NCBI RefSeq assembly: GCF_024684275.1 | Contig: NZ_JAIKXF010000090.1 | Coordinates: 62,001-126,000, forward strand | Length of the DNA: 64,000 nt | Direction of reading: 5' to 3' | Source of the DNA: Ruminococcus sp. | GTDB lineage: Bacteria > Bacillota_A > Clostridia > Oscillospirales > Ruminococcaceae | Part shown: in pieces, positions 15,470 to 61,633 of the stretch | Layout: each line of letters starts with the position of its first letter | Position numbering within the stretch: position 1 is the first letter of the stretch | The notes under the pieces: generated by a model | What the model was told of the DNA's origin: nothing | The model's database searches: none | What the model saw: only the letters and a program-made list of their open reading frames with translations | Translations under genes and position numbers: made by a program

Positions 15470-15913
15470 CTATCCCTCTATCTGTCTTGCAAGGAACTGT
15501 GCGGCGGCGTTGATAAGGCTTTTTTGCAGGTCCGTTACCTCATTGCATTTTTCACTGGTGAGGAATGCTACAGCTCCCGAAACATCGCCTGCTGTGATTA
15601 TAGGCAAAGCGGCAATGGCTGTTCGGTCTACGCCCTCGGCAGGAAAGAAATTATTGGTGCTTCCGTCGGGGCAAAAGAACTGTCCGCGGTTTTCCATGAG
15701 TTCCTCAAGCTGTCCTGTGACGCGGCGCTCAGCGAACTCCTTGCGCGGCACACCTGCTGAGGCTACTACGTGGTCCTTATCAAATATGACAACGGGACAG
15801 CCTGCTATCTTATGCATTATATCCGCTACGTATCCTGCGTTCTCGCTCATTTCGCTGACCGCGGAATACTTCTTGAAAATGACTTCGCCCTCGCTGTTTG
15901 TGTATATTTCGAG
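15470..15913 (-). pseudogene. spoVT: spoVT 3' portion (host gene fragment)
   Basis: These 147 codons plus stop continue the SpoVT frame that begins at 61633. Joined after GDP they give a 180-residue protein, matching the family size of about 178. The segment holds the end of the AbrB-type DNA-binding hairpin (LEIYTNSEGEVIFKKYS) and the whole GAF-like domain with ISELGDF-equivalent EMSENAGY and the conserved end AAAQFLARQIEG. In the integrated state it is expressed only as the tail of the recombinase. Confidence 0.9.
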
Positions 15914-17653
15914 GGGGTCACCGTCACTGAAAACATTGACACTAAGAATTTCGCCCTTTCTTTTTTGAATATGGGCGAATAGTGACGAAAAATCGGTTAT
16001 CTTAGTGCCTTGCTTAAAATTTGCGCCTGCTCCTATGGTTTCGGTCTGAAGCTCGGCAGGCATACCTGTTCTCAGCAGTGCATCTATGTCTGAGCGGAGC
16101 TTTACGTCGATGTGGTCCTCAAATACGTCGATGCGCTCAACGATGAAGTCAACATCGACCTTTGCAAGCTTTTCTTTATTAATTATGGCGTCAAATATCT
16201 CCATTACCGTCTTTGCAGTTCGGTTTACGGAGATAATGGCGTTATGCTTATCAGCCGAAAGCTGTATCTGACTGCGGAAGCCCTCTATCTGCTTCATCAG
16301 CTCTGTTACCTGCTCCTGATATACTTCTTCAAGCATATCCTCCTGCTCGGGGTGCCTTGCAATATCCTTGATGTGCTGACGGCTGAGGAATTTCATTTCC
16401 GTCTTGGCGTCCTCCATTCTCTGTATAAGGACTTCAACTACATCTTTACCCGAAGAAGTCTCTTTCTGCTCCCTGTCGATAGATTTCTGGAGCTGAGTCA
16501 GCATTTCCTCTGAGTTTTCCTTAACTTTTCTGATGAATGACCTCAGTGTCTCGTCAAGTGTGTCAACTCTGATGTGGTGCGAGGTGCAGCCCTTGATACC
16601 GCGCTTGTGGTATGTTCCGCAGCGGTATGCCTGCGGTATATCGGCTCTGCTCATGGCAAACATGGGACTTCCGCAGTCGCCGCAGAAAAGGTGCCCCGTG
16701 TATACATTGTCGAACTTCTTTATTCCCCGATAGCCGTTGTGAGAGCGGAGCTTCATCTGCTCCTGTACAGCCGCAAACAGCCTGTAATCCACGATAGGCT
16801 CATGGTTGTTTTCGAGTACGATATGGTCGGTCTCATGGAGCTTCATATCTCCGCCGTTTATTTTTTTCCGGTGGTATTTTCGCTGTCGGAGAGTGCCGAT
16901 GTAGAAGTCGTTGCTGAGTATTGTACTGATAGTGACGATACTCCATGAATCCTTAGAGCGGACGGTGAATTCTTCGCCCTCGGCTTCCTTACGCATTTCT
17001 TCAGCCTTGCGCGGAGTGGGAATATGCTGGTCGGTGAGATAATTGGCTATCTTCTTATACCCCCAGCCCTCTGAGTAAAGCTGAAATATCTTTCTCACTA
17101 CCTCTGCTGAGGGCTCATCGATGCTGAACTTCATAGTCTTGCTGTTGGTCATAACATAGCCATAGGGGACAGCGCATATCCACTTGCCCTCTTTCTGGCG
17201 GTTGTTGATAACTGCCCTGACCTTTTTGGAGGTATCCGTAACGGGCATTTCGTTTACAAGAAAGCGGAACTGTATCGCCATCCAGTCGTCAGAGGTGGGG
17301 AAGTCTATACCGTCGCCGATAGAGATTATCCGCATACCTGCGTCGCGGAGGTCCTCAAGCTCCACAAGTCCGCGGCTGGTGCGCCGTGAGAAGCGAGAGA
17401 AATCCTTTATGACCAGTATGTCATACTCATGGCAGAACAGCTTTTTGCGGAGCTCCTGATAGTTCTCACGCTGCTCAAAGGTATAGCCTGAGCGGTCACG
17501 GTCGGTATAGAAGTCAAGCTGAGCGTCGGGAAATGTCCGTGTTACGTAGTCTGCGATGAGCGCCTTCTGGTTCTCAATCGAGGTATTGTCACGGTCAAGC
17601 TCCTCGTCTACAGAGATACGGCAGTAGCCTGCTATTCTGAGTGCGCTGCCCAT
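15470..17653 (-). CDS. Large serine recombinase fused in frame to the C-terminal part of SpoVT
   Basis: 727 aa as it stands. Residues 1-140 are the resolvase catalytic domain (RIAGYCRIS, nucleophile Ser14; FSRFSRRTSRG). Then come the recombinase domain (to about 290), a zinc ribbon with cysteines near 324, 327, 345 and 356, and a coiled-coil region. Residues 581-727 (LEIYTNSEGEVIFKKYSA...LINAAAQFLARQIEG) are not recombinase: they match SpoVT from just after its REGDP motif through its GAF-like sensor domain. The junction GDP codons form the shared att core. In an excised circle the protein would instead end in 27 residues encoded at 61451-61534 (607 aa). Start ATG 17653 is chosen over 17683 because AAGGAG lies 6 nt before it. 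Confidence 0.95.
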   Translation of the reverse strand: MGSALRIAGYCRISVDEELDRDNTSIENQKALIADYVTRTFPDAQLDFYTDRDRSGYTFEQRENYQELRKKLFCHEYDILVIKDFSRFSRRTSRGLVELEDLRDAGMRIISIGDGIDFPTSDDWMAIQFRFLVNEMPVTDTSKKVRAVINNRQKEGKWICAVPYGYVMTNSKTMKFSIDEPSAEVVRKIFQLYSEGWGYKKIANYLTDQHIPTPRKAEEMRKEAEGEEFTVRSKDSWSIVTISTILSNDFYIGTLRQRKYHRKKINGGDMKLHETDHIVLENNHEPIVDYRLFAAVQEQMKLRSHNGYRGIKKFDNVYTGHLFCGDCGSPMFAMSRADIPQAYRCGTYHKRGIKGCTSHHIRVDTLDETLRSFIRKVKENSEEMLTQLQKSIDREQKETSSGKDVVEVLIQRMEDAKTEMKFLSRQHIKDIARHPEQEDMLEEVYQEQVTELMKQIEGFRSQIQLSADKHNAIISVNRTAKTVMEIFDAIINKEKLAKVDVDFIVERIDVFEDHIDVKLRSDIDALLRTGMPAELQTETIGAGANFKQGTKITDFSSLFAHIQKRKGEILSVNVFSDGDPLEIYTNSEGEVIFKKYSAVSEMSENAGYVADIMHKIAGCPVVIFDKDHVVASAGVPRKEFAERRVTGQLEELMENRGQFFCPDGSTNNFFPAEGVDRTAIAALPIITAGDVSGAVAFLTSEKCNEVTDLQKSLINAAAQFLARQIEG
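15914..15940. other. Left attachment junction of the integrative element
   Basis: Core GGGGTCACC at 15914-15922 is shared with the right junction. Left of it is spoVT host sequence. To the right lies the element arm TCACTGAAAACATTGAC (15924-15940), which is inverted relative to the right arm at 61518-61534 (15 of 17 matches). Confidence 0.85.
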
Positions 17654-17706
17654 AAGATTCTCCTTTCTGTCAATGTTATTCATATTAATTTTGAATTGCT
17701 ATTATC

Positions 17707-17735
17707 ATTGTAACGTATGTGACTGCTTCTGTCAA
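17707..17735 (-). promoter_or_regulatory. Sigma-A promoter of the recombinase gene
   Basis: TTGACA (17730-17735), 17 nt, TACAAT (17707-17712) on the minus strand, 53 nt before the recombinase start. Confidence 0.85.
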
Positions 17736-17755
17736 GTGAAAAAATGAGGTGCGCA

Positions 17756-17965
17756 TCATACGCACCTCATATTCTGTAACAGTAATCTCTCTGTGTTTGC
17801 GAACAGATCCTCGCTTCCAGACAATAGGTAGATCACACTGCATTTTTTTACCGTAGCTTTGGAAAGGAGCAGCTTTGTCAGTTCCTTGCGATCGTATATC
17901 TCCTGTTCTTCATTTGTAAGCCAGACTTCGATTAAGCCTTTATCCTGTTTATTATATATTTCCAC
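17756..17965 (-). CDS. Small protein upstream of the recombinase, possible recombination partner
   Basis: 69 aa beginning at GTG (MEIYNKQDKGLIEVWLTN), with GGAGGG about 10 nt upstream. It is charged, without signal peptide or membrane helix. It resembles, by memory only, short conserved proteins that sit next to serine recombinases in Firmicutes mobile elements (pattern 'Y-[NE]-[KR]-x-D-K-x-L-[IV]-E-V-W-L-T'). A role as a directionality factor or regulator is speculative. It shares strand with the recombinase, whose own promoter lies in the gap. Confidence 0.65.
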   Translation of the reverse strand: MEIYNKQDKGLIEVWLTNEEQEIYDRKELTKLLLSKATVKKCSVIYLLSGSEDLFANTERLLLQNMRCV

Positions 17966-18328
17966 GTAAGCAGCTCCCTCCTCTCAATTTGATTATGCCC
18001 GTTTCATGAGAATAAATACTGTTATTTCATGATAGGTACCATTCAGTCCGTTTTTCTTCTTCATCATTGCTAAAAATGTTATTAAAGATTGTCCATAATA
18101 CGAAAGCAAGCACTCTGCATTATAATGCAGAGTGCTTGCTTGGTTAATAACCGAAAACTAAAAGTTTTGAATTTAATATATATTATAGCTTTTTATGAGA
18201 CATATTCAAGATGTCGGATTTTTAGGTGTTCTACACATGATTCTCAATTATTCAAAACAGTAGCCGCTTGTTCTGTTTTCAATCTGAATGTCAATCTGCA
18301 TACCTTAATTAACACAGGTTTATCAAAA
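17966..18328. other. Non-coding gap with a 38-bp perfect palindrome
   Basis: 363 nt between the small accessory gene and the SDR gene. Apart from the palindrome at 18104-18141 I see no gene, promoter of good quality or repeat. The region is AT-rich. Confidence 0.6.
18104..18141. repeat. 38-bp perfect palindrome
   Basis: AAGCAAGCACTCTGCATTA (18104-18122) is followed directly by its exact reverse complement (to 18141). No T run follows on either strand, so an ordinary terminator is unlikely. It could be a protein-binding site, a cruciform or a decayed repeat end. Confidence 0.75.
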
Positions 18329-19030
18329 TCACTTCAGCTCCCAGCCGTTATCACCGTGGTATATCATCAGCTTTGTCATACCGCCGTCGATGCAGATATT
18401 CTCGCCTGTGATGAAGCCAGCCTTGTCAGAGCAGAGAAACATGACCATATTGGCAATATCCAGCGGATTCCCCACACGTCCACAGGGCTGCTGATATGCG
18501 TCGGGACCCTCATAGACCTTGTATGACGTATCTATCAAGCCGGGAGAAATGGAGTTCACACGCACCTTTCCTGCAAAGCTCACCGCAAGTGCGTGAGTGA
18601 GGGCAGCTATACCGCCCTTTGCGGCAGTATAGCTCTCGGTCTGAGGTTGGCTCATACGGTCACGGGAGGACGAAATATTGATGATACTGCCGCCCTTATT
18701 GAAGTTTGGAGCGAACAGCTTCGACAGGTAAAACGGTGCAGTCACTCCCACTGCGAGAGCGTACTGAAACTCCTCATAGCTGCACTCGTCAATGCCCTTC
18801 ATCAGCGGCAGAGCGTTGTTGACGAGATAGTCGATGTGTCCGTGCTTTGCAATGACTTCCGCCGCAAACCTTTCAAGCACAGTCTTGTCGGAAATATCGC
18901 CGACGAAGTGATCTCCCTCAGCCTTGTCGATAACGCAAACCGTCGCTCCGTTTCTGCGGAATTCCTCGGCTATACACTTTCCGATACCATTTGCGCCGCC
19001 TGTTACTATGGCTACTTTGTTTTTGAACAT
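18329..19030 (-). CDS. SDR-family NAD(P)-dependent oxidoreductase
   Basis: 233-aa classical short-chain dehydrogenase. Cofactor motif TGGANGIG near residue 10, NNA (residues about 70-72), the catalytic Ser in ISSSRD, and the Tyr-Lys pair in YTAAK. Its C-terminus GGMTKLMIYHGDNGWELK recurs in many Clostridia homologues. Substrate unknown. It starts one base after the GyrI-like gene stop (TGATATG). A GTG 9 nt upstream is possible but less likely. The two genes form an operon. Confidence 0.88.
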   Translation of the reverse strand: MFKNKVAIVTGGANGIGKCIAEEFRRNGATVCVIDKAEGDHFVGDISDKTVLERFAAEVIAKHGHIDYLVNNALPLMKGIDECSYEEFQYALAVGVTAPFYLSKLFAPNFNKGGSIINISSSRDRMSQPQTESYTAAKGGIAALTHALAVSFAGKVRVNSISPGLIDTSYKVYEGPDAYQQPCGRVGNPLDIANMVMFLCSDKAGFITGENICIDGGMTKLMIYHGDNGWELK

Positions 19031-19031
19031 A

Positions 19032-19667
19032 TCAATCACTCTTTCTTATCGGGTGGCGGATAATCGTCTTCCACTTCTCAGGAGGCGTTTTTCTCGGATC
19101 TGAGAGGTATATCTCATGGTGCAGACGACCACTGCTGATGTCGTTCTGACAGCCATTTTCAGCGATAAACTTGTCCATCAACTCGACTGTTGCAGGCTCG
19201 TCATTGTAGGAGCCATAGTGCATTATCTGAACGCAAAGTCCCTCATTTATCGTAAGAAACTCTGCTGATGAGCAGTCCAGTTTTTTCTTCTTTGAAGCTG
19301 TTTCAATTGCCCACTGAAAGTCCTTCTCCGTGACAAAATCGGGAAGTCTGATAACAGATATCCACCTGAGCTGAGACTTGTCTGCGTAGTCGAAAGCTCC
19401 AACCTTATTGCTCCACCAGAAGCCCTCCAGAGGCGGTACGACATATTCGAAAAAACCGTCGATCTTATAGTCTGTCTTGTAACTCATTTTCAGTGTATAG
19501 GCAACGGCATAGAGCACTTCTATTGCCCGTTTGTATTCGCCGTTTTCATCATTAGGGTCACCTTTTCCGCGGACAGCGATATAGTTCATAGTCGGTATCT
19601 TAACGATCTGCGGCTTATTCTTTGGCATATAGTATTCCTTGTATTCTTTCTTGAAATCAAATGGCAT
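19032..19667 (-). CDS. GyrI-like small-molecule-binding domain protein
   Basis: 211 aa, starting MPFDFKKEYKEYYMPKN and containing the GyrI/SOUL-like fold features (KIPTMNYIAVRGKGDPN, then GFFEYVVPPLEGFWW and the C-terminal LHHEIYLSDPRKTPPEKWKT typical of stand-alone GyrI-like proteins). Such proteins bind or hydrolyse small hydrophobic molecules. AGGAGG lies 5 nt before the ATG. Upstream of the SDR gene in one transcription unit. Confidence 0.85.
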   Translation of the reverse strand: MPFDFKKEYKEYYMPKNKPQIVKIPTMNYIAVRGKGDPNDENGEYKRAIEVLYAVAYTLKMSYKTDYKIDGFFEYVVPPLEGFWWSNKVGAFDYADKSQLRWISVIRLPDFVTEKDFQWAIETASKKKKLDCSSAEFLTINEGLCVQIMHYGSYNDEPATVELMDKFIAENGCQNDISSGRLHHEIYLSDPRKTPPEKWKTIIRHPIRKSD

Positions 19668-19966
19668 GGTTACCTCCTGTTTTATTCAGAATTTGTAACA
19701 CCTCTCCGGTCGATAATTCCTGATAACTATATTCTATCATTTTATCTGAAAAAAATCAATGCTCAATCCTTTGCATTCTATTTTTTGAAATAGAGCCAAC
19801 AAGAAAAAATTCAAAAAAATTTTTGTGTGCCATGTAACACTTGTGATTTTTGCTTCGATTGTTCTTTATGAAAGGTCGACCAAGAACAAAAGTCCATACG
19901 GACATATCAATACACATAAGGAAAAATCTAAAGCCTTATGTGACAGAAATATCGGAGGAAAATATT

Positions 19967-20941
19967 ATGAAAAATCTCGTTGCTATTATAGCCGCTTTCG
20001 GCATCATGTTTTCAGCATTTCCCACAGTTTCTGCTTATGCAGCAGATACAGCATCCGCTTCAGTTTCATCTGAGACTTCAGTAGAAACAACCGACATGGA
20101 GCACCTTGCAGGTGAATGGAAGTATCAGTACACCAATACTACTATGCCTGTATATGTAAGCCCTTCAGACGGCGGTACAGTAGTTATCAATAAAGACGGA
20201 ACATATAAGTTCAGCCGCACAGACGGAACGGTCTCATCAGGAAAAGTTGAATTAGGATTGTATACCATTGGCGGTCAGGTATTTCAGAGTATAAGCCTAT
20301 ACGAAGGTCAGGAGCGTATGTTCGGAGGCTATTATCACAGCGATGATCCCGACATTATCTATCACGGAAACAATGTTGCTTCACGCCTTATCCGCAAGAG
20401 CTCGGCAGTGGTAAGCATTAAAGACTTCGTAGGAAGCTGGAAGGAACAGACAGCTGACACCAATGCTGATATAGAGGTATCTTTCAAGGAAACAGGCAGC
20501 TGCGAGATAAAGGCTGACGGCACATATGTATACACAGATGCCAGCGGCAAGACATCATCAGGTATAGTTTATGTCGGAGATGAAACAATAGGCGGTACAG
20601 TTATACCTGCACTCAGATTCTATAACGGCAATACACTGGAACGTGCATCTTCCTATCACCCTTCAAGAGCTGACCAGATATATTTTGGCAACGGTGCAAG
20701 AGTACGCTTTGTACGCGATCCAAAGGTGATGCTAAGTGGTGACGCTAACTGCGACGGCACAGTAGATATGTCAGATGTGGTTCTGGTTATGCAGGCTCTT
20801 ACAAACCCTAACAAATACGGTATAAATGGTTTATCTGACAAGCACCTTACACCCCAGGGAAGAATCAACGCTGATATGGACGGCAGCGGTCTGACAGTGG
20901 GCGATGCTAATGCTATCCAGAATAAACTCCTTAACAAGTAA
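19967..20941 (+). CDS. Secreted dockerin protein with a duplicated unknown domain
   Basis: 324 aa. A signal peptide ends near SAYA|AD. Two related segments of about 100 aa follow (HLAGEWKYQYTN... and DFVGSWKEQTAD..., each with a KADGTY/NKDGTY turn and an IGG.V motif), of unrecognised family and beta-rich lipocalin-like appearance. The C-terminus is a type I dockerin with two Ca-binding repeats (GDANCDGTVDMSDVVLVMQA and INADMDGSGLTVGDANAIQN). The protein would dock onto a cohesin of a cell-surface or cellulosomal scaffoldin. Start ATG 19967 has GGAGG at 8 nt; the frame is open further upstream but that part has no leader. Confidence 0.85.
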   Translation: MKNLVAIIAAFGIMFSAFPTVSAYAADTASASVSSETSVETTDMEHLAGEWKYQYTNTTMPVYVSPSDGGTVVINKDGTYKFSRTDGTVSSGKVELGLYTIGGQVFQSISLYEGQERMFGGYYHSDDPDIIYHGNNVASRLIRKSSAVVSIKDFVGSWKEQTADTNADIEVSFKETGSCEIKADGTYVYTDASGKTSSGIVYVGDETIGGTVIPALRFYNGNTLERASSYHPSRADQIYFGNGARVRFVRDPKVMLSGDANCDGTVDMSDVVLVMQALTNPNKYGINGLSDKHLTPQGRINADMDGSGLTVGDANAIQNKLLNK

Positions 20942-20960
20942 TTAGCCTTGACGAAAAAAC

Positions 20961-20998
20961 AAATGCCATAGAGTTAAAAACTCTATGGCATTTTTATA
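20961..20998. terminator. Bidirectional terminator between convergent dockerin genes
   Basis: 15-bp stem (20961-20975 with 20979-20993), AAATGCCATAGAGTT / AACTCTATGGCATTT, with T-rich tails on both strands. Confidence 0.85.
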
Positions 20999-20999
20999 T

Positions 21000-22085
21000 T
21001 TATGGAGAATTATGAGCCTGTTTTTCCATAAATTCTTCCATTGATATTATTTCTTCCTTTTCAGTTGAGGTATAGGCATAATAGGAAAGAATATTTGAAG
21101 CGTCTACGGCGTTGATACTGCCGTTACGGTCGACGTCTGCGGCAAGCTTCTGATTCGCATCGAGGTCGCCGTTCTTATTGGTGGAGGTCATGGCGTAGTA
21201 TGTCAGGACCTCAGAAGCGTCCACAGCATTTATCAGCCTGTCATTATTTACGTCGCCAAGCTTATACTCAGCAGTTTCATCAGGGTTAGCAGTTGTTGTG
21301 ACAGTAGTTGTAGTGGTTGTAGTTGTTGTCGTAGTTTTTTTCTCGCCGAGTATCTTGATGTAGCCGTTGTATATACCCTTGGTGAATACATAGGTCATCT
21401 GAAGCTTTCCTGCCTCGTCCTTTTGACTGTTTATAAAGGTATCAGCTACTATGCCGTCGTCTGTATACGCCAAGCCTATGGGGTAGACTTCGCCCTGCTC
21501 AGCATTTTCGGGAACTATAAAATCAATGGTGAATAAACAGCTGTGATCCAGCAGAGTATCCTCGGCATATGCGTAGAATGCCAGCTGTCCGTCTTCGATC
21601 TTTGCTGAACCCGTAGTGAAGCCGTTTAATCCTTTGCCTGGTGTTATGAACTTACCTGCTGAATTTTCTTTGACAGTGAGACGAGTGTCATAGAAAATAT
21701 GGAACTTGATGTAGCTGACAGGTTCAGTTGCGCCTGTAATGCTGAAATATACACGCTGTACCTTGCCCTTTGCATATTCGGGTTCAAGTCCTATTTTATC
21801 GAAATAGAGCATAATGCCGCCATTATAATCCCTGGGATCTATCTTCGGAGTATTCCAATCATTCGGCTGTACCCAGCGAGTTCTGTCGTAGGGGACTTCC
21901 ATGTCGTCCTGTTTGTCAAAGGGATTATCTGATATCGTATCAGACGTATCAGCGACACTTTCGGCTTCGGTAAGAGCATTTGAATTTGTCCTTATTATGC
22001 TGTCGGGAAAGCAATAATAAAGCGATAAGACCAGTGCAAGACTTGTTATTAATGATATAAAGCGAGTCAAAAGTCTATTTTTCAT
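21000..22085 (-). CDS. Cohesin-like plus dockerin secreted protein (scaffoldin/adaptor type)
   Basis: 361 aa. An N-terminal hydrophobic signal segment is followed by a domain (about 85-240) with cohesin-like features: VQRVYFSITGATEPVSYIKF, DTRLTV, GKGLNGFTTG and CLFTIDFIVPENAEQGEVYPI. Then comes a Thr-rich linker (a run of 12 Thr) and a dockerin with two INAVDAS repeats ending LTYYAMTST and LSYYAYTST. Cohesin plus dockerin in one protein fits an adaptor scaffoldin of a Ruminococcus cellulosome, but the cohesin call is from pattern only. Start ATG 22085 is set by AGGAGG 6 nt upstream. Confidence 0.75.
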   Translation of the reverse strand: MKNRLLTRFISLITSLALVLSLYYCFPDSIIRTNSNALTEAESVADTSDTISDNPFDKQDDMEVPYDRTRWVQPNDWNTPKIDPRDYNGGIMLYFDKIGLEPEYAKGKVQRVYFSITGATEPVSYIKFHIFYDTRLTVKENSAGKFITPGKGLNGFTTGSAKIEDGQLAFYAYAEDTLLDHSCLFTIDFIVPENAEQGEVYPIGLAYTDDGIVADTFINSQKDEAGKLQMTYVFTKGIYNGYIKILGEKKTTTTTTTTTTTVTTTANPDETAEYKLGDVNNDRLINAVDASEVLTYYAMTSTNKNGDLDANQKLAADVDRNGSINAVDASNILSYYAYTSTEKEEIISMEEFMEKQAHNSP

Positions 22086-22121
22086 AATGGGCCTCCTGTT
22101 ACACAGCAATTCAGTAATAAC

Positions 22122-22150
22122 AGATTATCATAATTTCTGCAATGTGTCAA
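22122..22150 (-). promoter_or_regulatory. Sigma-A promoter of the cohesin-dockerin gene
   Basis: TTGACA (22145-22150), 17 nt, TAATCT (22122-22127) on the minus strand, 37 nt before the start. Confidence 0.75.
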
Positions 22151-22180
22151 TACCTTTCTTGGAAGAATATATGCATAGAA

Positions 22181-22312
22181 TAAGGCAGTCCAACGGACTG
22201 CCTTGTTGTAATGCTAAAATACGTTTTTTTGTTCTGATTTGTCCCTTACAATTTATTTTAGAAATTATATCAATCTGTGCAGTGCTATGTGCAGATGCAC
22301 TGCACAGATCAA
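22181..22312. repeat. Two hairpins downstream of the esterase gene
   Basis: AAGGCAGTCC aac GGACTGCCTT (about 22182-22204) and a longer stem built on CTGTGCAGTGC / GCACTGCACAG (about 22276-22308). Neither is followed by a clear T run. They may still end transcription or stabilise mRNA ends of the flanking minus-strand genes. Confidence 0.5.
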
Positions 22313-22354
22313 CATCGGAAAAGAATTATAACATCAGCTATTGATGTGTATGGA

Positions 22355-25727: not shown

Positions 25728-25786
25728 TTCTTGCGGTATGCACGGCTTTGAAAGCTTACCGCGGCTATCCGTTCACGGAGGTAAAA

Positions 25787-26353: not shown

Positions 26354-26368
26354 GTTCGTGAAATAGAA

Positions 26369-26398
26369 TGAAGGCGGCTTTCGAGCCGCCTTCATATT
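26369..26398 (+). terminator. Rho-independent terminator after the HAD gene
   Basis: ATGAAGGCGGCT ttcg AGCCGCCTTCAT followed by ATTTT. Confidence 0.8.
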
Positions 26399-26459
26399 TT
26401 ATGTGAGCTTGTCTTTTTGTTTTTACAGTGATAGTGATTGCCGCATAAAACTGAGGCTA

Positions 26460-46978: not shown

Positions 46979-46989
46979 GAGGTCAAAAT

Positions 46990-50471: not shown

Positions 50472-50483
50472 ACGGAGTTAAGT

Positions 50484-51110: not shown

Positions 51111-51127
51111 TTTTTGAGGTGATAGAT

Positions 51128-53875: not shown

Positions 53876-53884
53876 GGTGTGTTT

Positions 53885-54859
53885 ATGAAAGCATTGATCG
53901 TAGGTTATGGTTCAATGGGAAGAAGAAGGATTAGGCTCCTGCAAAAACTTGTAAATGATGTTGATATCATAACTGTTGACAGTAATCCCGAAAGAGTCAA
54001 GCAGGCTGAAGAGGCAGGTATAAAACCGTTTGTTGATCTTCAGAAGGCGATGGAGGAAAAGCCTGATATTGCTTTCGTATGTACATCTCCTGGACATCAT
54101 GCAGAAATAATCATCAAGCTTCTTGAAAACAATATTCATGTTTTTACTGAGCTTAATCTTGTTGATAACGATTATGACAGGATTATTTCGACTGCAAATG
54201 AAAAAAAGCGTGTTGTTTTCATGTCAAGTACGATGCTTTATAACAAAATGATTGAAAAGATAGACGAATATGTTAAGAAAACCACTAAGCCGTTAACGTA
54301 TATCTATCATATAGGGCAGTATCTTCCGGACTGGCATCCTTGGGAAAGCTATAAGGACTTCTTTATCGGAAAAAAAGAGACCAATGGTGTTAGGGAAATA
54401 TTTGCTATTCAGCTTCCCTGGGTAATAAATACATTCGGAAAAGTGAGCAGCGTTACATCAAATGCACAGAGATGTACAGGGCTTGATATCGAATTTAATG
54501 ACAGCATTATCGCTGATATGAGACATGAAAACGGTAATATAGGTGTCTTTTTAGCTGATACTGTTTCTCGTAAGGCAATAACCAGCCTTGAGATTGTTGG
54601 TGAAGAATTACATTTATTCTGGCATGGTCACAACGATGATCTTGAAGTATATGATATTGAGAAAAAGGAAATGAAAAAGATATCTGTATATGATAATGTA
54701 GAACATACTGACGGCTATGCGGATAATATCATTGAAAATCAGTATACTGATGAGATAAATGATTTCCTGAGTGCTGTTTTTAATGGGACAGAGCCTAAAT
54801 ATTCAATTGAAAAGGACAAGTATACCTTATCAATAATTGATCAGATTGAAGGAAGATAA
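53885..54859 (+). CDS. Gfo/Idh/MocA-family oxidoreductase 1
   Basis: 324 aa. GYGSMGRRRIRLL at the N-terminus, CTSPGHHAEIIIKLL and TELNLV (position of the usual EKP), YHIGQYLPDWHPWESYKDFF. NAD(P)-dependent sugar dehydrogenase fold; substrate unknown. Paired with a homologue directly after it, as in several nonulosonate loci where they tailor the sugar. Start ATG 53885 after GAGGTG. Confidence 0.82.
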   Translation: MKALIVGYGSMGRRRIRLLQKLVNDVDIITVDSNPERVKQAEEAGIKPFVDLQKAMEEKPDIAFVCTSPGHHAEIIIKLLENNIHVFTELNLVDNDYDRIISTANEKKRVVFMSSTMLYNKMIEKIDEYVKKTTKPLTYIYHIGQYLPDWHPWESYKDFFIGKKETNGVREIFAIQLPWVINTFGKVSSVTSNAQRCTGLDIEFNDSIIADMRHENGNIGVFLADTVSRKAITSLEIVGEELHLFWHGHNDDLEVYDIEKKEMKKISVYDNVEHTDGYADNIIENQYTDEINDFLSAVFNGTEPKYSIEKDKYTLSIIDQIEGR

Positions 54860-54860
54860 T

Positions 54861-55781
54861 ATGAAAGTTTGCTTTATTGGGTTGGGTTCAATAGCACGCA
54901 GGCATATACTTAACCTGAAAAAAATTCTTGACACTGAGATAAGCATTGATGTATTGCGTAGTGGCAATGGAAACAAACTTGATGATGAATTTTTACGTAA
55001 TTTATCAAATGTATATTTTTCGTATGATGAGCTCAGAGAAAAATATGATGCTGTATTTATAACAAATCCTACCAGTAAGCACTATGAAACGCTCAAGAAA
55101 TGCATAGATAAAAGTGATAATTTTTTCATCGAAAAGCCTGTTTTTGAAACAGGAGAAGAAGATATCAGCGGATTTATCAACTCCGGTAAAGTGTTTTATG
55201 TTGCTTGCCCGTTGAGATATACCAATGTTATTCAGTATCTGAAAGAAAATATTGATTTCTCAAAAGTATATTCAATGCGCTGCATTTCTTCAAGTTATCT
55301 TCCGGATTGGCGTCCAGGCACGGATTACAGGAATACCTACAGTGCTCATAAGGAGCTGGGAGGCGGTGTTTCAATAGATTTGATCCATGAATGGGATTAC
55401 ATTCATTATCTTATTGGAGCGCCGGAATGCGTAAAAAGCATAATAAGCAGGAAATCAGATCTGGAGATAGATTCTGATGATATTGCAGTGTATATTGCTG
55501 AATATTCAGATAAGATTGTAGAGTTGCATCTTGACTATTTTGGCAGACAGACAATTCGTAAGGTTGAATTGTATATGAAAGATGATACGATCATCGCGGA
55601 TCTTGTTAATCAGCAAATACAATTTTTAAAAGCAGGAAAAATAATTGATCTTTCTCAGGAAAGAAATGAATTTCAAATACGCGAGCTTCAGCATTTTATT
55701 GATATTATTAGTGGAAAAATGATTTGTGACAATAATTTGGATGAAGCTTGCAGAATACTAAAGATAACGAGGGGCTATTGA
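54861..55781 (+). CDS. Gfo/Idh/MocA-family oxidoreductase 2
   Basis: 306 aa. GLGSIARRHILNLK, TNPTSKHYETL and the canonical EKPVFE, then SYLPDWRPGTDYRNTYSA and GGGVSIDLIHEWDYI. Related to the preceding gene but clearly divergent. One base separates it from that gene, and it overlaps legF by one base. ATG 54861 follows GGAAG by 5 nt. Confidence 0.85.
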   Translation: MKVCFIGLGSIARRHILNLKKILDTEISIDVLRSGNGNKLDDEFLRNLSNVYFSYDELREKYDAVFITNPTSKHYETLKKCIDKSDNFFIEKPVFETGEEDISGFINSGKVFYVACPLRYTNVIQYLKENIDFSKVYSMRCISSSYLPDWRPGTDYRNTYSAHKELGGGVSIDLIHEWDYIHYLIGAPECVKSIISRKSDLEIDSDDIAVYIAEYSDKIVELHLDYFGRQTIRKVELYMKDDTIIADLVNQQIQFLKAGKIIDLSQERNEFQIRELQHFIDIISGKMICDNNLDEACRILKITRGY

Positions 55782-56545
55782 TGAACATATTATTTACTAT
55801 CTGCGGACGTGCAGGCTCTAAGGGGTTCAAGAATAAGAATCTAAAGGAAATGAATGGTGTTCCGCTTGTTTATTATACATTGGCTTCAATAAAGGCATAT
55901 ACAGATGTACATTCCGAAAACAATGTTACCGTTGCAGTTAATACCGACAGCTATGAACTGGTTGAATGCATAAAGAAACAAAAGACTGTAAGCAATATAG
56001 TTTTTGTTGAAAGAAAAGAAAGCCTTGCAGGAGATACTGCACCTAAGGTGGATGTTATAAAAGACACATTTCTTTCCCTGTCAAAAGAAAAAAGATTTGA
56101 TGTGATTATTGACTTGGATATTACATCACCATATAGACGATTAAAAGATATAGAGAATATTGTATCCGAGTTTAACAAGAAGGAATATGACATTGTTTTC
56201 AGTGTTGTTAAAGCAAGAAGAAGTCCGTATTTTAATATGGTTGAAAAGAAAAATAATGGATATTTCAGAAAGATTTGTGAATCAAATTATACTGCGCGAC
56301 AGCAAGCACCTCAGTCCTATGAGATGAATGCAAGTATTTATGCGTATAATCCCAATTTCTTAAGTTCACAAATCAGCAAAACTATTCTTGATTACAATTG
56401 TGGAATTATAGAAATGCCTGATTTCTTAGTGTTGGATATTGATTCAGAAGATGATTTTGAGATGATGCAGATGCTGCATTCATATTATTGTAAGTTAGAC
56501 GATCAGCTTAATAATATTTATGAAACAGCAAAGAGACTTAGCTGA
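55781..56545 (+). CDS. legF: CMP-nonulosonate (CMP-legionaminate) synthetase
   Basis: 254 aa. TICGRAGSKGFKNKNLKEMN is the CTP-binding signature of NeuA/LegF; DLDITSPYRR and FSVVKARRSPYFN follow, and TARQQAPQSYEMNASIYAY is typical. It activates the acid with CTP to give the donor for the 44.4-kb transferase. ATG 55781 (TATTGATG overlap with the previous stop) has GAGGGG upstream; the longer open frame inside the previous gene is not used. Confidence 0.92.
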   Translation: MNILFTICGRAGSKGFKNKNLKEMNGVPLVYYTLASIKAYTDVHSENNVTVAVNTDSYELVECIKKQKTVSNIVFVERKESLAGDTAPKVDVIKDTFLSLSKEKRFDVIIDLDITSPYRRLKDIENIVSEFNKKEYDIVFSVVKARRSPYFNMVEKKNNGYFRKICESNYTARQQAPQSYEMNASIYAYNPNFLSSQISKTILDYNCGIIEMPDFLVLDIDSEDDFEMMQMLHSYYCKLDDQLNNIYETAKRLS

Positions 56546-56608
56546 TTATTGCTGTTGCTTATTAAATTAAAAAATAAAATAAATATCAGCTTGAAAAGAA
56601 GTGAGTTT

Positions 56609-57049
56609 ATGAGTGAAAATCAAGAATTAATTCGGAAAATTAATAATGCTATAGAATTTGTAAAAAAACAAGACTTAACAAATATATCAATTGGGAAATA
56701 TATTATTGATAGATACTCGTATTTCACGGTTCAGGAGTATATTACCAGAAAAGAAGAAAATTCAAAGTATGAGACTCATAAAAAGTATATCGATGTTCAT
56801 TTTATGATAAACGGTATAGAAAAAATCAAAGTAAGTTCCTGTGATAACCTTACTCTCGATTCAGCTTATGATGAGGATTCTGATGCGGCTTTATGGACGG
56901 CTTCCGAAATTACATTGAATGTGATGGAAATGGTTCTTGGAAGTGGTAGTTATGTTGTCTTATATCCTGAACATGCTCATATGCCTGGTTTAATAGTTAA
57001 CAATGAAATGAAAATTAAAAAGGTAGTATTGAAAATTAGAATAGATTGA
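56609..57049 (+). CDS. YhcH/YjgK/YiaL family (NanQ-type anomerase) protein
   Basis: 146-aa DUF386 beta-sandwich protein (EYITRKEENSKYETHKKYID, VHFMINGIEKI, and HMPGLIVNN near the end). E. coli NanQ of this family speeds the anomer exchange of sialic acid, so its place after legF fits nonulosonate metabolism. ATG 56609 follows AGAAGTGAG. It ends the leg gene run; 230 nt separate it from glmS. Confidence 0.82.
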   Translation: MSENQELIRKINNAIEFVKKQDLTNISIGKYIIDRYSYFTVQEYITRKEENSKYETHKKYIDVHFMINGIEKIKVSSCDNLTLDSAYDEDSDAALWTASEITLNVMEMVLGSGSYVVLYPEHAHMPGLIVNNEMKIKKVVLKIRID

Positions 57050-57278
57050 TCTATTGAAGAAATGATTTGTGTATAAAACGCATTGTTTTTTATAAACGAT
57101 ATTATTATAGTCTAAATTTAATTATTAAAGGAATTATGTTAACAGTATTGATTTGGATTGCAGAAGGAAAAGATATATAGTAACATAAATGCCTTGCTAT
57201 AATTATACTGGGAAGTTAAAAGGATTAAGCACGGATAATAAATCTTGTTTTTGTGGCGTTTTGGAAAGGAAATAAATT

Positions 57279-59117
57279 ATGTGCGGAATAGTTGGATTTA
57301 CAGGCAAGAGACAGGCAGCACCCATACTGCTTGACGGACTTTCAAAGCTTGAATACAGAGGTTATGACTCAGCAGGTATCGCAGTTCGTTTAGGTGATAA
57401 GGATACCGAGATAATAAAAGAAAAAGGCAAGCTTAAAAAGCTTGCTGATAAGACGGACAACGGCAAAGCTGTAAAAGGCTGCTGCGGTATCGGTCATACT
57501 CGTTGGGCTACACACGGCGAGCCTTCTGCGCTGAACGCTCATCCTCATGCAAGTGATGATGAGAACGTCATCGCTGTTCACAATGGTATCATTGAGAACT
57601 ATCAGGAGCTCAAAGAAAAGCTTGTAAAGTCAGGTTATGAGTTCAATTCACAGACAGATACAGAGGTAGCTGTCAAGCTCGTTGACTATTACTACAAGAA
57701 ATATAGCGAAGGTCCCGTAGACGCAATCGCCCGTGCAATGACGCGTATCCGCGGCTCGTATGCACTCTGCGTAATGTTCAAGGACTATGCAGGAGAGATC
57801 TATACAGCCCGTAAGGATAGTCCTATGATAATCGGTATTGCAGACGGCGAAACATATGTTGCTTCAGACGTTCCTGCAATTCTCAAGTACACACGCAATG
57901 TTTATTACATTGGCAATATGGAGATTGCGCGTCTTGAAAAGGGCAAAGTAACTTTCTATAATATTGACCGCGAGGAGATAACAAAGGAGCTTACTGAGAT
58001 CAAGTGGGATGCAGAGTCTGCTGAAAAGGGCGGATATGAGCATTTCATGATGAAGGAGATCCACGAGCAGCCTAAGGTCATCAAAGATACTATCAATTCT
58101 GTTGTAACTAACGGCAAGGTTCATTTCGACAGTGTAAACCTTACTGACGAGGAAATGCAGCAGATACAGCAGATATACATTGTTGCCTGCGGCAGTGCTT
58201 ACCACGTTGGTGTAGCTGCTCAGTATGTTATCGAGGAGCTCACAAGCTTACAGGTTAGAGTAGAGCTTGCTTCTGAGTTCCGTTACAGAAAGATGAAGCT
58301 CAACAAGAACAGCCTTGTTATCGTAATAAGCCAGTCCGGTGAGACGGCTGATACACTTGCCGCTCTGCGTGAAGCAAAGGAGCAGGGGGTAAAGACTCTC
58401 GCTATTGTAAATGTTGTCGGCTCATCTATTGCAAGAGAGGCAGACAATGTGTTCTATACTCTTGCAGGTCCTGAGATATCAGTTGCAACAACAAAGGCAT
58501 ACAGCACACAGCTTATTGCAGGGTACCTTCTTGCACTTCAGTTCGCTAAGGCAAGAAATGAGATAGAGGAAAAGCGCTATAAGACTCTGCTCGCTGAGAT
58601 AAACACTATTCCCGAAAAGGTTGAGAAGATATTACAGGATAAGGAGCGTATCCAGTGGTTCGCTAACAAGCTTATCAATATCAAGGATGCTTTCTTTATT
58701 GGTCGTGGTATCGACTATGCTATCGGCATGGAGGGCAGCCTCAAGCTCAAGGAGATAAGCTATATCCATTCTGAGGCTTATGCTGCTGGCGAACTCAAGC
58801 ATGGTCCTATCAGTCTTATTGAGGACGGTACAATAGTTATCAGCGTTGTAACTCAGGAGAATCTTACTGAAAAGACTATCAGCAATATGGTAGAGGTAAA
58901 GAGCCGAGGAGCTCATCTCATGGCTGTTACAACAGCAGGAAATTATTTTATCGAAGATACTGCTGAGTTTGTATCATATGTTCCGAAGATCGATCCGCTG
59001 TTTGCAGGAAGTCTGTCGGTAGTACCGCTCCAGCTTCTTGGTTACTATGTTTCTATCGGCAAGGGTTTTGATGTGGACAAGCCGAGAAATCTGGCTAAGA
59101 GTGTTACGGTTGAATAA
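57279..59117 (+). CDS. glmS: Glutamine-fructose-6-phosphate aminotransferase
   Basis: 612-aa GlmS, making glucosamine-6-phosphate, the entry to cell-wall amino sugars and to the GDP-route for legionaminate. N-terminal nucleophile Cys2 in MCGIVGFTG, CGIGHTRWATHGEPS, HNGIIENYQELK, and two SIS domains from about 290 (SQSGETADT; C-terminal end PRNLAKSVTVE). AAAGGAAATAAATT precedes the ATG. No glmS ribozyme is visible in the 229-nt upstream gap. Whether this is the only glmS in the cell is unknown. Confidence 0.97.
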   Translation: MCGIVGFTGKRQAAPILLDGLSKLEYRGYDSAGIAVRLGDKDTEIIKEKGKLKKLADKTDNGKAVKGCCGIGHTRWATHGEPSALNAHPHASDDENVIAVHNGIIENYQELKEKLVKSGYEFNSQTDTEVAVKLVDYYYKKYSEGPVDAIARAMTRIRGSYALCVMFKDYAGEIYTARKDSPMIIGIADGETYVASDVPAILKYTRNVYYIGNMEIARLEKGKVTFYNIDREEITKELTEIKWDAESAEKGGYEHFMMKEIHEQPKVIKDTINSVVTNGKVHFDSVNLTDEEMQQIQQIYIVACGSAYHVGVAAQYVIEELTSLQVRVELASEFRYRKMKLNKNSLVIVISQSGETADTLAALREAKEQGVKTLAIVNVVGSSIAREADNVFYTLAGPEISVATTKAYSTQLIAGYLLALQFAKARNEIEEKRYKTLLAEINTIPEKVEKILQDKERIQWFANKLINIKDAFFIGRGIDYAIGMEGSLKLKEISYIHSEAYAAGELKHGPISLIEDGTIVISVVTQENLTEKTISNMVEVKSRGAHLMAVTTAGNYFIEDTAEFVSYVPKIDPLFAGSLSVVPLQLLGYYVSIGKGFDVDKPRNLAKSVTVE

Positions 59118-59120
59118 GAA

Positions 59121-59148
59121 TCAAAGCTGTCCTTATGGACAGCTTTGA
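59121..59148. terminator. Hairpin after glmS
   Basis: TCAAAGCTGTCC ttat GGACAGCTTTGA, perfect 12-bp stem but no strong T run after it, so termination may be partial. Confidence 0.5.
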
Positions 59149-59187
59149 CGTATAAAACATCTTTTAAAAGAGGAAAGAGGTAATAAA

Positions 59188-60216
59188 ATGGCTACAATTT
59201 TACTCGCAGGCGGAGCAGGCTACATAGGTTCCCACACAGCAGTTGAACTTTTAAATGCAGGCTATGATGTAGTAGTTGCAGACAACTACTCAAACAGCTG
59301 TCCCGAATCAATCAAGAGAGTTGAAAAGATAACAGGCAAGTCGGTTAAGCTTTATGAGCTGGACATCAAGGATAACGCAAAGCTTGCAGAGGTCTTTAAG
59401 GAAAACAAGATAGACGCTGTTATCCACTTTGCAGGACTTAAAGCAGTAGGCGAGTCTGTACAGAAGCCTATTATGTACTATCGCAACAACATTGATACTA
59501 CACTTGCACTTCTTGAAACAATGAAGGAGTTCAACGTAAATAACATCATATTCAGTTCATCTGCAACTGTATATGGTGAAGCTAACCCTGTTCCATATTT
59601 TGAGACAATGCCTCGCGGAGCTTGTACCAATCCCTACGGCTGGACCAAGTCCATGATGGAGCAGATATTCGAGGATGCTGCAAAGGCTGACGAGAAGCTG
59701 TCCGTAATACTTCTCCGTTACTTCAATCCTATCGGAGCTCATGAGTCCGGTATGATAGGCGAGGATCCACAGGGAATCCCGAATAACCTCATGCCTTATG
59801 TATCACAGGTGGCAGTAGGAAAGCGCGAGTGCCTTACTATTTTCGGCAACGATTACCCAACAGCTGATGGTACCTGCACCCGTGACTATATCCATGTTGT
59901 TGATCTTGCAAAGGGACACGTTAAGGCTATCGACTATATTCTCAAGAACGACAAGTGCTGCGAGATATTCAATCTCGGAACAGGTACTCCATACAGCGTA
60001 ACCGAGATAGTTGACACCTTTGAGAAGGTAAACAATATCAAGGTAAACCATGTATACGGACCAAGACGTGCGGGCGATCTTGCTGAATGCTATGCTAATG
60101 CTGACAAGGCATTAAAGGTTCTTGGCTGGAAGACCGAGAAGTCTCTGGAAGATATGTGCCGTGATTCATGGAACTGGCAGAAGAACAATCCTAACGGCTA
60201 TAATAAGGCGAAGTAA
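59188..60216 (+). CDS. galE: UDP-glucose 4-epimerase
   Basis: 342 aa. GGAGYIGSHTAVELL, AGLKAVGESVQKP, SSSATVYG, the catalytic Tyr-Lys in YGWTKSMMEQI and RYFNPIGAH. Interconverts UDP-glucose and UDP-galactose, or the N-acetyl forms, for glycan synthesis. GAAAGAGGTAATAAAATG gives the ribosome site. Length is normal. Confidence 0.97.
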   Translation: MATILLAGGAGYIGSHTAVELLNAGYDVVVADNYSNSCPESIKRVEKITGKSVKLYELDIKDNAKLAEVFKENKIDAVIHFAGLKAVGESVQKPIMYYRNNIDTTLALLETMKEFNVNNIIFSSSATVYGEANPVPYFETMPRGACTNPYGWTKSMMEQIFEDAAKADEKLSVILLRYFNPIGAHESGMIGEDPQGIPNNLMPYVSQVAVGKRECLTIFGNDYPTADGTCTRDYIHVVDLAKGHVKAIDYILKNDKCCEIFNLGTGTPYSVTEIVDTFEKVNNIKVNHVYGPRRAGDLAECYANADKALKVLGWKTEKSLEDMCRDSWNWQKNNPNGYNKAK

Positions 60217-60294
60217 TACTGATACAGTATAATGTAAGTAATGTATGAATAACTAAAGAGTTATTGACACAGTCAGGATATTGAAGGAGTTTTT

Positions 60295-61326
60295 ATGAAA
60301 TATGTATTAATTTCAAAGTATAGAAACAGTATAATGGGGGTAGCTGCTATCATAATAGTTATCATGCATTATTTTGTAGAATTGTATCCTCACTTATTGC
60401 CATCAGCTGTGGAAACAATTATAAAAAGAGGCAATATCGGTACTGATGTTTTCCTTTTCGTATCAGGAATGGGGTTGTTTTTTTCAATGTCAAAAAACAA
60501 CAGACCAAAAGATTTTTATCTAAAAAGAATCAAGAGGGTTATTCTTCCGACATTATTTATCTCTCTGCCATACTGGTTGATATTAGGAATGGTTATCAAC
60601 GGTGATTCATTTGGTATGTTCTTACTGAACTGGACAGGCATTTCACTTTGGACACATGGCATAAGGGTGGTATGGTATGTTTCTTTGATAGTCGTTCTGT
60701 ATTTTTTCTATCCTTTGATATACAATCTGCAAAAAAAGAATACATATATGTTGTTAGCAGTAATGGCAGTGGTATATTCAGCAATAGTTGTTTTATTTGT
60801 ATGTTTTCCTTCTTATTATAATAAAATCGAGATTGCAGTTACCCGTATACCGATATTCCTTATAGGTTCTATGTTCGGTGAAGCTGTTTTTGGCTATGCT
60901 GAGAAAAAACGTACAATAAACATTATAGTTAGTCTTTATATGCTTATCATGCTTGTGATGATGCTTATTGGTATTGTTTTTCAGTCTAAGGCGCATGATC
61001 TTTCAGTAATGCTGTATCGTATTGGCAGCGGTGGAGCTGCTGTTTTGCTTTGCCTTATAATTCCGGCAGTTTTAGAAAGATTCAAACTCGAAAAGATTAA
61101 TAATCTTTTGGCGAAAGTTGGAGCAATATCATTGGAACTGTATTTAATACACGTATTTATCAAAAATACTATAAGCAAAATGGAATGGGGAAATAACAGT
61201 GGGGCGGCTGTAAAGCTTATGATAATTGCTATTGCTGTGACGCTTGCATTTATACTTAGTTTTGCAGTGTCATATTTAGAGCACGGAGTTATGAATAAAA
61301 AACAGCGTTCAGTGCAAAGCAATTGA
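60295..61326 (+). CDS. Acyltransferase-3 family membrane protein
   Basis: 343 aa with about ten helices. IMGVAAIIIVIMHYFVEL, with the conserved His in helix I, is followed by GNIGTDVFLFVSGMGLFFSM and FYLKRIKRVILPTL, as in OafA/YrhL-type enzymes that O-acetylate surface glycans using cytosolic acyl-CoA. GAAGGAG lies 8 nt before the ATG. It is the last gene inside the element, 208 nt before the right core. Confidence 0.88.
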   Translation: MKYVLISKYRNSIMGVAAIIIVIMHYFVELYPHLLPSAVETIIKRGNIGTDVFLFVSGMGLFFSMSKNNRPKDFYLKRIKRVILPTLFISLPYWLILGMVINGDSFGMFLLNWTGISLWTHGIRVVWYVSLIVVLYFFYPLIYNLQKKNTYMLLAVMAVVYSAIVVLFVCFPSYYNKIEIAVTRIPIFLIGSMFGEAVFGYAEKKRTINIIVSLYMLIMLVMMLIGIVFQSKAHDLSVMLYRIGSGGAAVLLCLIIPAVLERFKLEKINNLLAKVGAISLELYLIHVFIKNTISKMEWGNNSGAAVKLMIIAIAVTLAFILSFAVSYLEHGVMNKKQRSVQSN

Positions 61327-61450
61327 AACTATATAATACCATGACAATTGACCTAATGGCATTAAGCTAACAGAATAAGGAAAGAAATCAGGAGTTAGTT
61401 CGATAATTTGATATAATCCCTGATAAATGTAAGAGCTTATTTTGATGTTA

Positions 61451-61633
61451 TTATTTCTTCGATATATGTAACCTGTCATTTAAATTTTTCATGGCAGTGC
61501 AGAACAGGAGCTCATGTGTCAATGATGTCAGTGAGGGGTCACCCTCACGTATACGCATAGTTCTGCGTATCTCTTTTGGAATGACGACTCGACCGAGGTC
61601 ATCTATTCGTCTGACGATACCTGTTGCTTTCAT
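61451..61633 (-). pseudogene. spoVT: spoVT 5' portion (AbrB-type DNA-binding half), truncated at the element junction
   Basis: 60 codons. Residues 1-33 (MKATGIVRRIDDLGRVVIPK...RTMRIREGDP) are the near-invariant N-terminus of SpoVT, a swapped-hairpin AbrB-like DNA-binding domain. The next 27 residues (SLTSLTHELLF...) come from the element and have no family match. The second hairpin strand needed for the fold is lost, so it is probably inactive. AAGGAG lies 9 nt before the ATG. The missing 147 codons are at 15470-15913. Confidence 0.93.
61518..61543. other. Right attachment junction of the integrative element
   Basis: Arm GTCAATGATGTCAGTGA (61518-61534) then core GGGGTCACC (61535-61543), followed by spoVT 5' sequence. 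The arm is the inverse of the left arm at 15924-15940. In an excised circle the two arms would flank the core as a 44-bp dyad centred on the TC at 61539-61540. Confidence 0.85.

Follow-up and report, generated by a model that had tools for sequence, protein, structure and literature searches.

A polysaccharide and dockerin island splits the sporulation gene spoVT in Ruminococcus and joins its serine recombinase in frame to the SpoVT C-terminal domain

The island and its empty site

We analysed a window of 64,000 nucleotides from Ruminococcus sp. (NCBI RefSeq assembly GCF_024684275.1, contig NZ_JAIKXF010000090.1, positions 62,001 to 126,000), in which the sporulation regulator gene spoVT is split by an island of polysaccharide and dockerin genes that carries a serine recombinase. 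Coordinates are those of the window. The split falls at codon 31/32, and the distance between the two cores, which is the length of the element, is 45,621 bp. Both parts of spoVT are on the minus strand, codons 1-33 at 61633-61535 and the remaining codons at 15922-15470; the core GGTGACCCC is common to both pieces (15922-15914 and 61543-61535) and has no other copy in the window. The open reading frames (ORFs) and flanks concerned are as follows.

13866..15335, plus strand: left host flank, DUF1846 gene, which adjoins spoVT in the closest relatives as well
15470..17683, minus strand: chimeric ORF of 737 amino acids (ORF list, Pfam, structure model)
15470..15922, minus strand: host share of the chimeric ORF, from spoVT codon 31 (GDPLEIYTN...) to the stop (sequence)
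15914..61543, no strand: integrated element including both 9-bp core copies (core copies and empty site)
17756..17965, minus strand: ORF of 69 amino acids directly upstream of the recombinase, with a GTG start and a ribosome-binding site recognized by eye (ORF and relatives)
61451..61633, minus strand: chimeric stub ORF of 60 amino acids, SpoVT residues 1-33 plus 27 element residues (ORF and stub comparison)
61451..61534, minus strand: element-encoded tail SLTSLTHELLFCTAMKNLNDRLHISKK and stop, the putative native recombinase C-terminus on the excised circle
61634..61726, no strand: right host flank, spoVT 5' region, collinear with the empty site of G138 (alignment)

The original prediction for this DNA had described two spoVT pieces, on one strand and in the correct order, that join to an uninterrupted SpoVT, with a large serine recombinase at the left end of the element. 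Our analysis agrees: both pieces are on the minus strand, the joined flanks align with the intact spoVT of two relatives, and the recombinase is recognized by its Pfam domains. The C-terminal piece is located where it had been placed, but is not a separate remnant of 147 codons, since the ORF at 15470-17683 encodes one protein of 737 residues. The N-terminal piece does contain 33 SpoVT residues, but its ORF has 60, the other 27 being from the element. That prediction had noticed neither that the recombinase is fused to SpoVT_C nor that the stub bears a reciprocal tail, nor how widely the family occurs.

Related genomes with an intact, insert-free spoVT, for which that prediction had proposed a search, are represented by G100 and G138, both from the genus of R. 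flavefaciens FD-1. In these two relatives (~90% DNA identity) the uninterrupted gene spans window position 15928 straight to 61536 and adjoins a DUF1846 gene whose protein is 98% identical to that of the window. G100 aligns at ~90% over 8202-13731 and 13787-15928, then directly over 61536-61695 (79%), and G138 aligns at 88-92% up to 15927, then over 61536-61726 (89%). Alignment of the joined window flanks with these loci (L156 of G100 and L157 of G138) shows ordinary substitutions at the junction, with zero bases gained or lost. Assembly error is an unlikely source of the split, because junctions of the same type with different cargo recur in other genomes. As in other sporulation gene-intervening elements, the parts of the gene lie on one strand and share a short core, the gene is intact in relatives, and the element carries its own site-specific recombinase.

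The gene order DUF1846-spoVT-DUF2520-panB suggested earlier for this locus holds for DUF1846 only. We rejected DUF2520-panB as right-flank synteny, as it is not conserved: the two genes lie elsewhere in the closest relatives, and where spoVT and the DUF2520 gene are on one contig they are at least ~39 kb apart, as judged by eye. Only the left flank was usable for synteny comparison. Past 61726 the window, G100 and G138 each have different neighbours, and the far right flank is variable for reasons separate from the insertion. Within window 61726-64000 the neighbour upstream of spoVT (DUF2520, panB) differs from that of both closest relatives, which also differ mutually; this stretch is a second variable junction, adjoining the spoVT promoter. 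The flank proteins gave no match in the initial set of loci.

The recombinase-SpoVT_C chimera

The recombinase frame has no stop before the host gene and continues in frame into the 3' part of spoVT. Its product comprises Resolvase (residues 17-168), Recombinase (193-312) and zinc ribbon (328-380) domains, long helices, a linker and SpoVT_C (611-736; PF15714, E 5.5e-32 in Pfam). Every domain of the serine recombinase is thus held in one open ORF, and the gene is not cut into the N- and C-terminal pseudogenes of the tyrosine-type suicidal integrases. The closest neighbours of the chimera in fold and sequence are the SP-beta integrase YokA, which is the nearest solved recombinase, and Bacillus SpoVT. 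Ser24 is at least 90% conserved across 35 aligned fusions, and a strict catalytic-serine pattern is satisfied in 61 of the 72 fused loci described below, where matches often begin late.

In an AlphaFold model of the chimera SpoVT_C is confident, with block means of 80-91 over residues 611-730, and the 63-residue linker (544-606) is predicted to be disordered, with a predicted local distance difference test (pLDDT) score <50. The model as a whole is weak (pLDDT 64.5, predicted template modelling score 0.31) and is good for the separate domains only. The 69-residue ORF upstream has no match in Pfam or NCBIfam. Relatives of this ORF lie no more than 700 bp upstream of the recombinase in 25 of the 72 fused loci; sequence reaching that far upstream is available for 61 of them. 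We guess that the product of the ORF is a candidate partner or directionality factor.

The attachment site

The sites attributed to recombination are listed here.

15914..15922, minus strand: attL core GGTGACCCC, with the putative crossover dinucleotide GA at 15919-15918
61535..61543, minus strand: attR core GGTGACCCC
15920..15940, minus strand: left attP half GTCAATGTTTTCAGTGACGGT, within the recombinase frame (VNVFSDG)
61518..61538, minus strand: right attP half CCCCTCACTGACATCATTGAC, with 17/21 dyad matches to the left half

Joining the element ends gives a 44-bp attP, GTCAATGTTTTCAGTGACGGT-GA-CCCCTCACTGACATCATTGAC, with a dyad of 17/21. Over 19 elements, for which both ends came from one genome though sometimes from different contigs, the dyad averages 16.5/21, as against 5.5 (standard deviation 2.0) for shuffled right arms; one extra pair was dropped, having no left end in the set. 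The odd stub L151 gives 13/21 when paired with L003. The left half of attP encodes VNVISD in the recombinases, and at the six codons before GDP a single codon is used in 95-100% of the loci with the majority residue; upstream of these six the single-codon share ranges from 33% to 100%. Such frozen synonymous codons at the crossover indicate a DNA constraint within the reading frame, as expected of an att half-site. Because the left half lies in the recombinase ORF and its synonymous codons are frozen, we infer that attP is located inside the integrase gene. The dyad, the frozen codons and the in-frame tail of the joined element ends agree with an attP within the integrase's own gene, a feature of suicidal integrases.

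One IMG/VR contig (L133/L134) ends exactly at the crossover GGTGA, as expected of an assembler where alternative junctions meet; by eye, it also encodes a MobC-like protein.

The element-encoded tail on the stub

On the other side of the island, the stub frame passes the core, adds 27 codons of element DNA and then stops. Most of the first 27 stubs that we collected encode a short peptide of the same kind beyond the core, followed by a stop. A motif for this tail occurs in the reading frame of 43 of 46 stubs, as against 2 of 92 translations in the other frames. It was written after the first 27 stubs had been seen and loosened after all 46 had been seen; the stricter version is in frame in 32 of 38, compared with 1 of 76 in other frames. 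Twenty of the 46 were collected after the pattern was noticed, and L107, one of the first 27, is outside the 46. The tail has a pN/pS of 0.25 over 39 close, non-independent pairs. Comparisons between 26 distinct split N halves give a mean of 18.7 synonymous changes per 23.7 sites and 5.1 non-synonymous changes per 72.3 sites. A circular element would carry the recombinase frame through attP into the tail peptide; this peptide is therefore most readily understood as the native C-terminus of the recombinase, which integration has stranded at the opposite end of the element. Genome G010 has two SpoVT_N stubs ~7.5 kb apart (L118, positions 936 and 8462) upstream of one fused recombinase, possibly tandem elements.

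Spread of the fusion

Relatives of the recombinase were found at 79 loci in a scan of species genomes, which makes 80 with the window. By an automatic test, 72 of these have the recombinase fused in frame to SpoVT_C at the same codon, with no stop between the parts; two of the 72, L005 and L058, have a SpoVT_C that is cut by the contig end. In L036 and L041 the fusion was recognized by eye, L077 is truncated, L079 is only remotely related, and four loci (L011, L030, L051 and L063) are unfused. The unfused L063 (11611-12385) lies directly upstream of an intact spoVT, and the unrelated tails of L011, L030 and L051 look as if these copies had integrated elsewhere.

We searched 40 genomes of the 79 loci for spoVT itself. 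Thirty-six have the C-part without a contiguous spoVT, the N stub not being found in every one, and the four genomes with an unfused recombinase all have a contiguous gene. Where N and C parts could be placed on one contig, they are on the same strand, N upstream of C, and 8 to 81 kb apart. Among 100 genomes of the FD-1 genus, spoVT is contiguous in 54 (one cut by a contig end), represented by the C-part only in 28 and the N-part only in 1, and absent from 17; open frames of at least 725 occur in 19 of the 28. In another family at least 20 of 150 genomes are fused, as judged by an open frame of at least 718. A protein search limited to 405-1290 amino acids returned 620 matches to the SpoVT_C stretch, and among the 120 matches listed 119 contain PF07508 Recombinase; the other, the partial protein P0004, has a zinc ribbon only. 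Among plasmids, 211 records contain only relatives of <60% identity, and in none of them is 80% of the query covered at a single place.

Repeated insertion and signs of coexisting states

The recombinase and the SpoVT_C domain to which it is fused have different histories. The recombinases of L020 (Pseudoflavonifractor) and L022 (Butyricicoccus) are 88% identical, compared with 43% for SpoVT_C, and the reverse is seen between the window and L075 (recombinase 58%, SpoVT_C 87%). Over 1176 pairs from 49 loci, the recombinase is more alike than SpoVT_C by at least 20 points in 324, and the reverse holds by at least 15 points in 11. The trees comprise these 49 of the 72 fused loci, 20 having been dropped by hand to thin related rows and 3 for length. 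Approximately unbiased (AU) tests, on groups picked after quick trees had been seen, rejected six recombinase kin as a clade on the SpoVT_C tree (p = 1.7e-64) and six SpoVT_C kin as a clade on the recombinase tree (p = 3.7e-96). Because the two trees conflict so strongly, insertion must have occurred many times, with the recombinase moving between hosts and each time gaining the local SpoVT_C. The island is likely to be mobile, and the trees point to cell-to-cell transfer.

In genome G048 the contig with attL terminates, and the contig with attR starts, in host DNA that matches an intact spoVT, located on another contig again, at 100% identity (158 bp and 95 bp, respectively). This is the pattern given by coexisting empty and filled alleles; a mixture of strains could also produce it. 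Between stub and intact spoVT, identity is 99.3% over 142 bp in G103, compared with only 84% over 189 bp in G098.

Three further loci, L103, L104 and L105 (in G108, G065 and G132), have a stub and attR with an intact spoVT 4.7-13.2 kb downstream. Upstream DNA is duplicated in L103 and L104, and the stretches examined in the three contain no full recombinase. They are probably domesticated islands with a repaired target.

Cargo of the island

The island carries the following gene groups.

21000..24661, minus strand: two dockerin proteins, one with GDSL and glucuronyl-esterase domains (Pfam)
28745..32185, plus strand: two BspA-type leucine-rich-repeat proteins, the second with a dockerin (Pfam)
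32249..35631, minus strand: rmlDBCA-type genes for deoxythymidine diphosphate (dTDP)-rhamnose (Pfam; 84-96% relatives in L103)
36447..61326, plus strand: polysaccharide cluster (Pfam, NCBIfam)

The polysaccharide cluster encodes a sugar transferase, a member of a flippase family, aminotransferases, LicD, NeuB, NeuC, a cytidylyltransferase, GlmS-like and GalE-like proteins and an acyltransferase, and the island altogether has three dockerin proteins. At 51119-53283, N-acetylneuraminate synthase and UDP-N-acetylglucosamine 2-epimerase score above NCBIfam cut-offs, and are genes of the type used for sialic-acid-type sugars. In the middle of the cluster (44001-46000) the G+C content is 27%, compared with 45-51% in the flanks, which points to foreign origin. 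The earlier view of the cargo as glycan and cellulosome genes instead of phage genes is borne out by the 40 island ORFs scanned: Pfam scans found no phage structural or lysis genes (PHROGs was not searched), and there were no relaxase or conjugation genes (small ORFs were not all scanned).

We found no cargo common to all elements, most loci holding only part of their island. At thresholds of at least 45% identity and 60% coverage, cargo is shared with the window by L103 (rml genes and galE), L117 (a short-chain dehydrogenase/reductase, 90%) and L060 (an aminotransferase, 73%); L045 and L073 have rml genes in common with it at 46-61%. The 8-kb element of L092 encodes Wzz, CpsB/CapC, a PglD-like protein and a dockerin protein.

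A proposed exchange of C-terminal ends and its alternatives

A precise insertion, ORFs of 737 and 60 residues, a dyad attP, chimeras of the same kind elsewhere and repeated independent insertion are established from sequence. The process that we propose would be a reversible site-specific integration with exchange of C-termini. The element would circularise, and the circle would encode a recombinase of ~617 residues ending in the short tail. This form would integrate into spoVT, after which the recombinase would bear the GAF-type domain of SpoVT on a flexible linker; excision would trade the tail ends back and rebuild spoVT. We consider it highly plausible that the island in spoVT swapped C-terminal ends upon integration, with excision likely reversing the swap and restoring SpoVT. 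We guess that the swap biases the direction of recombination, or that a SpoVT ligand gates excision, so that SpoVT would be inactive in the presence of the integrated island and active after its excision.

Several observations weigh against this proposal or parts of it. The attP pattern of the excised junction was absent from viral contigs and from 125 genus genomes in an exact-base search. With the joined recombinase-tail protein as query, one exact-word search gave zero matches and another 13, none circular: 12 were fused forms, and the remaining one, P0130, terminates at the core. Codons -10 and -11 (98%) and -25 (17/17) are as fixed as the att codons, and three stubs (L118_936, L151, L152) are without the tail motif. 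In the fused G013 the C-part lies in an open frame of only 245, the recombinase probably being broken upstream. A clade of L012, L013, L059 and L075 on the SpoVT_C tree was not rejected by the AU test (p = 0.167), and no transfer gene was found among the 40 ORFs scanned. Upstream of the 69-residue ORF, sporulation-sigma motifs were not in excess at 25 loci relative to shuffles made by first-order Markov resampling. Finally, the unfused recombinases of L011, L030 and L051 end in other, unrelated short tails; SpoVT_C is therefore not required by every copy, and given these copies the fusion may be a by-product.

Such a by-product would be passive: attP would by chance lie within the recombinase ORF and match the phase of SpoVT, fusion and stub would have no function, and the DNA site alone would matter. 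We regard this as a real possibility that falls somewhat short of probable. It agrees with the conservation of the left attP half as DNA, with the unrelated ends of L011, L030 and L051, and with the predicted disorder of the linker, whereas the in-frame motif and low pN/pS of the tail beyond the att site, and the lack of a stop between recombinase and SpoVT_C in the 72 passing loci, speak against it.

Alternatively, excision may be timed to sporulation and restore SpoVT, as in skin, SP-beta and gin. The forespore is the cell line that becomes the spore, and excision in those three systems follows the logic of a mother cell that is thrown away. The passages on SpoVT in PMC5061766 place its action in Bacillus in the forespore, so that mother-cell logic would not simply be transferable to the spoVT element: excision in the forespore would leave the spore without the island. 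The lack of excess sporulation promoter motifs also counts against such timing. Consistent with it, all 14 genomes tested, of which 12 have a fused and 2 an unfused recombinase, retain a Spo0A_C protein and a SpoIVA, and G048 has empty and filled alleles side by side. SpoVT_C has a dN/dS of 0.008-0.114 in the six closest fused pairs (dS <0.6), which we used alone because the remaining pairs look saturated; the median is 0.43 over all 116 pairs with dS <1.2. On balance we view sporulation-timed excision as possible but doubtful.

That the island is dead, with spoVT permanently inactivated and its pieces yet to decay, seems improbable: both chimeric frames are maintained across deep divergence and Ser24 is conserved in the aligned fusions, even though the insertion is absent from close relatives, and so may be young, and the stretches of L103-L105 combine a stub and an intact spoVT without a full recombinase. 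A chromosomal rearrangement joining two unrelated loci at att sites, with no insertion, would fit the absence of DUF2520-panB next to spoVT in the relatives compared, but is very hard to credit given the collinearity of the spoVT 5' region with the empty site to 61726 and the recurrence in other genomes of same-strand N and C parts on one contig.

The exchange of C-terminal ends that we favour could also take a more far-reaching form, in which the element rewires itself: the integrase would shed its integration tail and gain the ligand-sensing domain of the regulator it silences, the host's sporulation signal would time exit, and exit would restore both regulator and tail. We put this forward tentatively and think it rather unlikely as it stands.

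Comparison with known systems

The elements skin in sigK and SP-beta in spsM are reportedly site-specific elements inside sporulation genes. They resemble the spoVT element in this position, and YokA of SP-beta is, as noted, the nearest solved relative of its recombinase. They are prophages or prophage-like, have a separate recombinase gene and are excised with timing set to the mother cell. The staphylococcal cassette chromosome (SCC) with Ccr and the fdxN element with XisF are likewise serine-recombinase elements. SCC has variable cargo without phage genes and inserts at the 3' end of rlmH; the fdxN element lies within a gene, which it interrupts and from which it is removed during development. 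The NCBIfam models for Ccr and XisF score far under cut-off for the window recombinase.

The element gin is a non-phage element in gerE of Bacillus cereus, 28.6 kb long with three recombinases, for which excision in sporulation was demonstrated (PMC5595907). As described in the passages on gin there, it shares with the spoVT element a non-phage nature, a serine recombinase, a short common core and a split small sporulation regulator gene; the gerE halves encode proteins of 66 and 42 residues, and those passages report no recombinase fusion (PMC5595907). Given gin as so described, non-phage cargo by itself is not new.

Self-disrupting recombinases are called exclusively archaeal in the relevant passages of a 2021 review (PMC8371274). 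The archaeal SSV-type suicidal integrases discussed there also have attP within the integrase gene, but they are tyrosine enzymes whose gene is cut in two, whereas the bacterial serine enzyme of the spoVT element keeps its domains and gains one from the host. In mycobacteriophages such as BPs, whose immunity depends on integration, attP lies in a coding gene and integration alters a protein C-terminus as a switch (PMC9262239). There a tyrosine integrase acts at a tRNA gene and the repressor becomes shorter, whereas here no phage repressor is changed and it is the recombinase itself that is altered, by the addition of a domain from a host regulator. In the SP-beta YokA-YotN structures (9dxd) and in engineered fusions of integrase and recombination directionality factor (RDF), linking another domain to a serine integrase changes its direction; the engineered fusions are man-made and built with an RDF (PMC5737554), and SpoVT_C is no known RDF. 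Among the matches listed in open-licence PubMed Central, we found no account of spoVT with a serine recombinase, and the same literature gave no serine integrase with a self-disrupting att site.

Implications

Our results mark spoVT as a gene through which Clostridia of gut and rumen often acquire polysaccharide, surface-protein and other cargo, and tie carriage of an island to loss of a contiguous sporulation regulator gene. Att sites within the integrase's own gene would extend from archaeal tyrosine to bacterial serine enzymes. The exchange of C-termini at each insertion, if true, would be a natural form of the fusion between integrase and control domain that engineers have built, and the family offers dozens of natural pairs for probing how a C-terminal domain sets the direction of a serine integrase. 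Should the self-rewiring switch be real, two proteins would be reprogrammed by one crossover, across several families of gut Clostridia.

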